64,000 nucleotides of DNA. It comes from Gammaproteobacteria bacterium (GTDB lineage Bacteria; Pseudomonadota; Gammaproteobacteria; Pseudomonadales; Pseudohongiellaceae). The stretch spans positions 196,580-260,579 of the forward strand of contig JAHEGE010000002.1 in the NCBI GenBank assembly GCA_024639905.1, in the 5' to 3' direction. Of this stretch, positions 55,180 through 57,027 are shown one piece after another (position 1 is the stretch's first letter; every line of letters begins with the position of its first letter). The position numbers and the translations under genes were made by a program. The notes under the pieces were generated by a model, which made no database searches, was not told the origin of the DNA, and saw only the letters and a list, made by a program, of their open reading frames with translations.

Positions 55180-55280
55180 AGCGCTCTCTCTGGATGGCAA
55201 CAGACCCCAGCCGTCAGACCTCCTTTATTCTGGGAGTTCACAGAGAAAAACTCAGGCACATGCCGGAGTCACCAGATAAA

Positions 55281-55356
<76 letters not shown>

Positions 55357-55534
55357 TCTCTTCTTATGTAAATCTGCTATTCAAATCTACTGAACAAACC
55401 TCTAAGCTTGTCTCGAGTGTAGCGCTCGCTTGCTATAGCTTTCGTTGTAGCGGAGTGGCAGGCTTGTGAGAAGAAAAAGTATGCCTCGGCGAGCAACCTT
55501 TGATATAGTTCGCCCTCGCACTAAATCGCGATAG

Positions 55535-55608
55535 GGCTGGGTGGCAGAGTGGTCATGCAGCGGACTGCAACTCCGTTAACGCCGGTTCGATTCCGACCCC
55601 AGCCTCCA
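55535..55608 (+). tRNA. tRNA-Cys (GCA)
   Basis: GGCTGGG...CCCAGCC-TCCA, anticodon loop CTGCAAC. Confidence 0.96.
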
Positions 55609-55715: not shown

Positions 55716-55802
55716 GCCCGGGTGGCGAAATTGGTAGACGCAAGGGACTTAAAATCCCTCGCCTGAAAGGGCGTGCCGGTTCGATTCCGGCCCCGGGCAC
55801 CA
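55716..55802 (+). tRNA. tRNA-Leu (TAA)
   Basis: GCCCGGG...CCCGGGC-ACCA, long variable arm, anticodon loop CTTAAAA. Confidence 0.97.
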
Positions 55803-55812
55803 TCGCTTAGTT

Positions 55813-57027
55813 TTAGTCCAGCAACCCAAATCCCATACGACCACGCTCGACTCGATGGCCTACGTCATTCACGTAGTCTGGGCCTATTGAGGCGATTGTC
55901 GGCGTGCCGCTGCCCATCATGGCAATGGTCAGTTCTCGGTTCAGTAAGTTGAGCACGCGCTCGACTCCGGCTTGGCCGAAGGCGCCAAGGCCCCAGCAAT
56001 AAGGGCGGCCGATACCGGCGGCCGTAGCACCGAGTGCGAGCGCCTTGTAGATGTCGGTACCGCGGCGAAAGCCGCCATCGACGATGACGGGGATGCGCCC
56101 GTTGACCGCCGCAATAACCTCAGGCAGACACTCGATTGTCGCGCGCTCTGTTTCCACCGCGCGGCCACCGTGGTTCGATACGACGATGCCGTCGGCTCCG
56201 TGTTTCACGGCAAGCGCAGCGTCCGCGCCGGTTTCGATACCTTTGATCAACACCTTCATGTTCGTCACTTCTTTCATGCGACCAATCACGCTCCAGGTAA
56301 GCGAGGAGTCGTTAAGCATGACGCCGCTCATATCTAGGCCGCGGAACGCAGGCTTCGATTGCCCCGTGTGGCAGACGCTGCAGTCGCGGTCGTCCTCACG
56401 CATAAGCAATGACTGAGTTTCAGTGTTGCGTCCGCCCGGCAGATCTATTGTGAGGGCGACGGCGGTCGCTCCCGCGGCTTCCGCACGTTGCAGCATGGCT
56501 ACAGTGTACTCCCAGCGGTTTGTGGGATAGAGCTGGAACCAGACCGGCGCGTCACGCGCCTCGATCACCGCTTCGATGGGCGTCGATGATTGAGTGGAGA
56601 GGATCATGTGGTGGCCGACCGCCGACGCGGCGCGCGCTGTGCCGAGTTCAGCGTCGGCGTGGTACGCCCCTTGACTCCCTACCGGGCAGATGACGATTGG
56701 CGATTTCGCCTGAGTGCCGAGCAGATCGATACTCAGGTCTGGGTTGCTAACGTCGACGAGACGGCGTGGACGAATCTGGAAGCGAGTGAACCCAGCACGA
56801 TTAGCGCGCAGGGTGGCGTCGCTGTCGACACCCGTATTGAGATAGCCAAAGTGTGCGGGAGGCATTTTTTCGCGCGCAATCGCCTCCATCTCAAACACAT
56901 TGATAACCTCTGTTGGGTCTTTAAGCCGCTCGCCCAGTGTTTCCTCGACCTCCTGTGCGAATGCAGAATAGCTAGTGAGCAGGGGGCTTGCGGCTAAGAA
57001 CTTGAGGAATTCGCGTTTCTGATTCAT
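55813..57027 (-). CDS. FMN-dependent alpha-hydroxy-acid dehydrogenase (LldD-like), probably exported, with internal CXXCH motif
   Basis: SNHGGRAVE active-site His motif, VLIKGI, IPVIVDGGFRRGTDIYKALALGATA; N-terminus KREFLKFLAASPLLTSYSAFA looks like a Tat-type signal; CSVCH at 56368-56382. Confidence 0.88.
   Translation of the reverse strand: MNQKREFLKFLAASPLLTSYSAFAQEVEETLGERLKDPTEVINVFEMEAIAREKMPPAHFGYLNTGVDSDATLRANRAGFTRFQIRPRRLVDVSNPDLSIDLLGTQAKSPIVICPVGSQGAYHADAELGTARAASAVGHHMILSTQSSTPIEAVIEARDAPVWFQLYPTNRWEYTVAMLQRAEAAGATAVALTIDLPGGRNTETQSLLMREDDRDCSVCHTGQSKPAFRGLDMSGVMLNDSSLTWSVIGRMKEVTNMKVLIKGIETGADAALAVKHGADGIVVSNHGGRAVETERATIECLPEVIAAVNGRIPVIVDGGFRRGTDIYKALALGATAAGIGRPYCWGLGAFGQAGVERVLNLLNRELTIAMMGSGTPTIASIGPDYVNDVGHRVERGRMGFGLLD

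Follow-up and report, generated by a model that had tools for sequence, protein, structure and literature searches.

The 404-residue product of one open reading frame in the 64,000-nucleotide stretch of DNA analyzed here (the window) belongs to a clade of predicted exported FMN-dependent alpha-hydroxy-acid dehydrogenases that carry a CXXCH motif in loop 4 of the barrel. The members of this clade almost certainly form a real and distinct subfamily of FMN hydroxy-acid dehydrogenases, and their CXXCH probably holds a covalently bound heme c, which would make the window protein an exported, single-domain FMN flavocytochrome c.

The translation, which opens with MNQKREFLKFLAASPLLTSYSAFAQ, matched the Pfam family FMN_dh (PF01070) over residues 51-387 (E 2.4e-109; 366 bits against a cut-off of 24.9). 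The catalytic set is complete (Y62, Y167, D195, R200, K262, H286 and R289, corresponding to Y24, Y129, D157, R164, K230, H254 and R257 in glycolate oxidase numbering), each residue being present in 91-100% of the clade, and His286 and Arg289 presumably have the roles established in the family for His254 and Arg257. An AlphaFold2 model (42-row alignment; pLDDT 84.9, pTM 0.85) predicted a beta8/alpha8 barrel whose best match among solved structures was 1gox, with a TM-score of 0.92 by target length; glycolate oxidases ranked first among the structure matches, followed by mandelate dehydrogenase and flavocytochrome b2. The Pfam match and the intact catalytic residues bear out the identity proposed in an earlier note on this DNA, that of an FMN alpha-hydroxy-acid dehydrogenase, and judged by its sequence the protein is a bona fide FMN-dependent enzyme of this kind with predicted activity on a 2-hydroxy acid. 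The following features of the ORF were located:

55813..57027, minus strand: whole ORF (404 aa), FMN-dependent alpha-hydroxy-acid dehydrogenase, predicted to be exported, whose loop 4 contains CXXCH
55867..56877, minus strand: FMN_dh TIM-barrel domain, residues 51-387 (Pfam; predicted fold like 1gox)
56842..56844, minus strand: Tyr62, equivalent to active-site Tyr24 of glycolate oxidase (alignment to 1gox; Y in 98/100)
56242..56244, minus strand: Lys262, equivalent to Lys230 of glycolate oxidase, neighbour of FMN N1 (99/100, the remaining one unread)
56161..56172, minus strand: His286 to Arg289, equivalent to catalytic His254 and Arg257 of glycolate oxidase (100/100)

Narrower assignments were considered and rejected. 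LldD membership was set aside on NCBIfam scores of 209.5 and 227 (cut-offs 550 and 376), and the NCBIfam models for lactate oxidase and mycofactocin MftD also matched far under their cut-offs, the shortfall for LldD and lactate oxidase amounting to hundreds of bits. Flavocytochrome b2 was rejected because a Cyt-b5 Pfam match is absent and just ~40 residues precede the barrel. The genome (2.67 Mb in 26 contigs) encodes only one other full-length FMN_dh protein, which has neither the motif nor a signal.

The CSVCH claimed for codons 216-220 lies exactly there, and its conservation was assessed in 171 homologs, 100 motif-bearing and 71 motif-lacking, drawn from same-genus genomes, GTDB genomes and then the alphaproteobacterial class and the acidobacterial phylum. 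C216, C219 and H220 are kept in 100/100 relatives (one H being an unread base), a set from which 33 sequences were left at an 80% identity redundancy limit. Entropy is ~0 bits at these three positions versus 2.6-3.1 bits at positions 215, 217, 218, 221 and 224; there are 33 different XX pairs among the 100 carriers, and synonymous codons alternate at the motif (TGC/TGT, CAT/CAC) with divergence reaching down to ~46% identity. Clade members have 23-38 residues between H220 and W245, and in some relatives the distance from the motif to W245 exceeds that in the window protein by up to 14 residues. C300 and C344 were considered as partner cysteines and discarded, neither being invariant across the clade.

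The nearest relatives are from marine OM182/Pseudohongiella-type gammaproteobacteria, and the closest orthologs within the genus (75-91% identical) all have CXXCH, with SV, SN, AS, SS or TV as the XX pair, and their Tat motif is a canonical RRxFLK. The GTDB scan yielded 80 further loci, with identity down to 53%, in Gammaproteobacteria, Alphaproteobacteria, Acidobacteriota and one contig labelled Acidimicrobiia, and the sole carrier in the plasmid collection was Methylobacterium bullatum, where the gene is unannotated and is the same locus as L028/L139. Two metagenome-assembled records have doubtful taxon labels because their placement in the tree disagrees with them: the copy labelled Klebsiella pneumoniae (L124) groups with freshwater gammaproteobacteria and the one labelled Acidimicrobiia (L131) with Caulobacteraceae/Acidobacteria. 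Five acidobacterial sequences (L185-L189) read LCQxCHxH in loop 4, with an extra His two residues past the motif. At four loci (L102, L105, L108 and L109) there is a second, divergent CXXCH paralog on the minus strand, 46-50% identical, which has AHW but no PPAH context; it and the ortholog are in convergent orientation and are separated by a xylose-isomerase-like protein.

The N-terminus was examined for export signals, Tat-type signals being called by motif and hydrophobicity (five RR-bearing rows lay beyond the distance window of one signal scan and were counted from other scans):

56956..57027, minus strand: predicted Tat-type signal peptide MNQKREFLKFLAASPLLTSYSAFA, residues 1-24 (sequence; RRxFLx in 98/100 clade members)
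57001..57018, minus strand: KREFLK, residues 4-9, Tat-like motif in which Lys replaces the first Arg (relatives: RREFLK/RREFLKY)

All 100 carriers have a Tat-type N-terminus, with RR in 98 and KR in two. The Tat-like character that had been suggested for the N-terminus therefore holds for the whole clade, and the KR reported with it is a peculiarity that the window protein shares with a single relative (L112), since even 91%-identical relatives have the canonical RRxFLx-type motif. The Tat-like N-termini of the clade end in a conserved SP(L), and cleavage in the window protein is likely after AFA; AlphaFold2 confidence is low in this region (pLDDT <50 for residues 1-31). Among the motif-lacking homologs, a Tat signal is credible in 8/71 (L141, L184, L190, L191, L194, L198, L199 and L200), and no CXXCH was found in unsignalled FMN_dh homologs among the sequences collected. 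Export therefore does not imply CXXCH, but CXXCH does imply export, so that the suggested co-occurrence stands in one direction only, and conservation of the motif among signal-bearing homologs is strict within the clade and fails outside it. The eight signal-bearing, motif-free proteins would make up another type of hydroxy-acid dehydrogenase that is exported.

In a tree built with the loop columns removed, the motif-bearing sequences form one clade (SH-aLRT 97) that requires one change of state. Its sister group, L141 and L184, is exported and motif-free (support for the joint clade, 98), and the wider neighbours in the tree are ordinary FMN_dh proteins. Given this exported sister group, the signal is probably older than the motif, which was probably gained once, after export. 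Since all carriers belong to one clade, the association between signal and motif counts as a single evolutionary event and not as many.

The position of the motif in the fold, and of a histidine that accompanies it, is as follows:

56290..56442, minus strand: loop 4 region, residues 196-246 (AlphaFold2 secondary structure; strand-4-to-helix-4 definition)
56368..56382, minus strand: CXXCH motif, C216-S-V-C219-H220 (translation; clade-invariant; short helix 217-220 predicted)
56851..56853, minus strand: His59, candidate distal (sixth) heme ligand (from co-occurrence with the motif)

In the FMN_dh family, loop 4 joins strand 4 to helix 4, is flexible and contributes to catalysis, and the FMN site is at the C-terminal end of the barrel (PMC10153336); an elongated loop 4 marks the mandelate dehydrogenases (PMC8491902). 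AlphaFold2 predicted beta-strand 4 at residues 189-193 and helix alpha-4 at 247-252, with the motif between them at a local pLDDT of ~76-82. With FMN at the C-terminal barrel end and the motif in loop 4, CXXCH is predicted to fall on the FMN face. The description of this region as an insert needs correction because loop 4 is rewritten at similar length relative to spinach glycolate oxidase and no segment is added.

A comparison of alignment columns singled out His59: apart from the motif residues, no other His, Met or Cys is clade-invariant and at the same time rare in the remaining homologs. Position 59 is H in 100/100 motif-bearing sequences versus 4/71 motif-lacking ones (L055, L190, L191 and L193). 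His59 is three residues ahead of Tyr62, and it is the obvious candidate for a second heme ligand. The equivalent tyrosine of flavocytochrome b2 is Tyr143, at the interface with the heme domain, and by this analogy a heme bridging H220 and His59 would be close to the place where the heme of flavocytochrome b2 docks. Methionines of the loop (in KPMF and LDM) were rejected as the sixth ligand, the M227 position and M233 both being variable.

The genome is equipped for c-type heme maturation and for Tat export. CcmA, C, E, F, G and H are encoded in one stretch, in which CcmB- and CcmI-like ORFs were also recognized by reading; TatC is encoded, and there are 21 Cytochrom_C domain matches. PF01578 heme-handling proteins were present in 28/28 carrier genomes tested, but Ccm is near-universal in these phyla and its presence discriminates little. 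Predicted periplasmic export, strict selection on the loop-4 CXXCH (100/100) and the presence of ccm and Tat genes together accord with the periplasmic setting envisaged in the earlier note.

The same note had judged the segment too short for a cytochrome c fold, and we concur: no cytochrome Pfam match over cut-off was found in the window protein, in which ~25 loop residues follow the motif. In some members of the clade, Cytochrome_CBB3, Cytochrom_C and CCP_MauG matched exactly at the motif, at sub-threshold levels (E 0.03-0.26), and Ccm is able to mature a CXXCH in a designed non-cytochrome bundle (PMC6127164). The missing cytochrome c fold and the occurrence of His59 in four motif-lacking relatives both count against a heme. 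With His59 as a partner for H220, though, the first of these becomes a candidate bis-His heme site and not an objection.

The mechanism that we infer, from heme attachment and ligands to electron route and substrate class, would begin in the cytoplasm with folding around FMN, followed by Tat export. Loop 4, flexible and exposed, would then receive heme at C216 and C219 from Ccm (CcsA-type factors in other carriers). Tat exports folded proteins and Ccm is thought to act on an unfolded chain, so the loop would have to be free after export. H220 would serve as proximal ligand and His59, located a helical turn ahead of Tyr62, probably as the distal one, through which the heme would dock against the active-site entrance. 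A 2-hydroxy acid would be oxidized at FMN and the electrons passed singly to the heme and from there to soluble or membrane c-type cytochromes, and not to oxygen (as in the oxidases), quinone (as in LldD and mandelate dehydrogenase) or a fused cytochrome b5 (as in flavocytochrome b2), so that the whole flavocytochrome c would be one domain of ~370 residues. This complete picture, a TIM-barrel flavocytochrome c that has no cytochrome fold, with a heme ligated by H220 and His59 near FMN and matured by Ccm on a Tat-exported folded protein, is more tentative than heme attachment as such, and we put its chances at slightly short of even.

The main and serious rival to heme c is a Cys2His2 metal site, in which C216, C219, H220 and His59 would bind zinc or a mononuclear iron or copper and staple loop 4 to the active-site helix; such a site, structural or redox, would be loaded ahead of Tat export. 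The four residues, invariant in the clade and specific to it, make up precisely the ligands of a C2H2 site, Tat favours proteins that have folded with their cofactors in the cytoplasm, and a cytochrome fold would be unnecessary. However, heme c calls for a His immediately after the second Cys, and adjacent Cys and His on one metal are geometrically unusual. Furthermore, none of the cytosolic family members sampled has the site, the XX and following residues are without the usual Gly/Lys pattern of zinc knuckles, and some members are cytochrome-like (CAACHGPNGANG; weak cytochrome profile matches). We therefore regard a metal site as unlikely, though it deserves to be taken seriously.

Less likely again, and improbable in our view, is a C216-C219 disulfide, redox-active or structural, formed under the oxidizing conditions of the periplasm so as to close loop 4, and tuned by H220. 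Two cysteines in a flexible loop of an exported protein would suit it, but it leaves the invariant H220 and the co-conserved His59 unexplained, and Cys-X-X-Cys members without the His were not found among the collected homologs. The idea that an LldD-type enzyme, cytosolic or membrane-anchored, merely happens to contain CXXCH can be dismissed, for although five-residue motifs do arise by chance, and two other frames of the window have one in long non-coding ORFs, invariance to ~46% identity despite synonymous codon changes contradicts it, as do the NCBIfam shortfalls noted above. Covalent heme c thus remains our preferred reading of the motif.

The substrate was sought from gene context, and neighbourhoods vary between lineages. 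In the window the gene stands by itself, flanked by a tRNA-Leu gene and the gene for a hexapeptide-repeat protein. Genes for a beta-lactamase-fold hydrolase, an esterase and an MFS transporter lie farther out, in an order kept in the closest relatives. The tRNA genes on this side are:

55281-55356: tRNA-Gly
55535-55608: tRNA-Cys
55716-55802: tRNA-Leu

A 91-aa ORF at 55194-55469 on the plus strand (...GIAQLVEHDLAKVGVASSNLVSRSI...) overlaps tRNA-Gly and is its translation, not a protein gene. In a freshwater gammaproteobacterial branch, the dehydrogenase gene adjoins those for a PSD/DUF1592-DUF1588 protein with two CXXCH motifs, a DUF1552 protein and an ankyrin-repeat protein. This conserved module, its first protein also including DUF1585, adjoins the gene at L099, L102, L112, L116-L118, L121-L124 and L126 and may provide an electron acceptor; the proximity of a two-CXXCH protein speaks for the heme reading. 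At a single locus, L133, and not at the others, a Tat-signalled thiamine-diphosphate enzyme (L133:9056-11137) directly follows the FMN_dh gene, an arrangement that, by analogy with mandelate-type pathways, suggests periplasmic decarboxylation of the 2-keto acid product.

The open literature (with few subscription journals) and the solved structures yielded no earlier account of an FMN_dh enzyme that is exported by Tat or carries CXXCH, and the clade is apparently an undescribed, widespread branch of the lactate/glycolate-oxidizing flavin family. If the heme is present, a flavin dehydrogenase would be wired to the cytochrome c pool by ~25 residues in place of a whole cytochrome domain, a minimal solution that would be relevant to electron-transfer theory and to lactate or hydroxy-acid biosensors that work by direct electron transfer. 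It would also show that heme c can be attached in nature to a protein that Tat has exported already folded, and would imply periplasmic hydroxy-acid oxidation in marine and soil bacteria that are abundant but uncultured and whose copies so far have a generic family assignment only.

Among known systems, flavocytochrome b2 (yeast CYB2, L-lactate:cytochrome c oxidoreductase, 1FCB) shares with the window protein the FMN_dh barrel, the same catalytic residues, a non-cytoplasmic compartment and the relay from FMN to heme to cytochrome c that we propose here. It differs in that its heme b is non-covalent and held in a separate N-terminal cytochrome b5 domain, whereas the window protein has no b5 domain and its CXXCH is within loop 4. 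MdlB ((S)-mandelate dehydrogenase) and LldD belong to the same family and likewise have a variable loop 4 that decides where electrons exit, but in them loop 4 seats the enzyme on the inner face of the cytoplasmic membrane, where quinone is reduced, and they have neither signal peptide nor CXXCH. Glycolate oxidase/HAOX1 (1GOX) is the closest solved fold (38% identity in the structural alignment) but reduces oxygen, is peroxisomal or cytosolic and has no heme motif. Finally, p-cresol methylhydroxylase, flavocytochrome c sulfide dehydrogenase and gluconate 2-dehydrogenase also combine a periplasmic flavin dehydrogenase with c-type heme; they are FAD enzymes of other folds, however, and their heme c is in a separate cytochrome subunit or domain (PMC6472588). 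As read from its sequence, the window protein is flavocytochrome-like in its predicted working, and it is neither a flavocytochrome b2 nor a c-type cytochrome fold.
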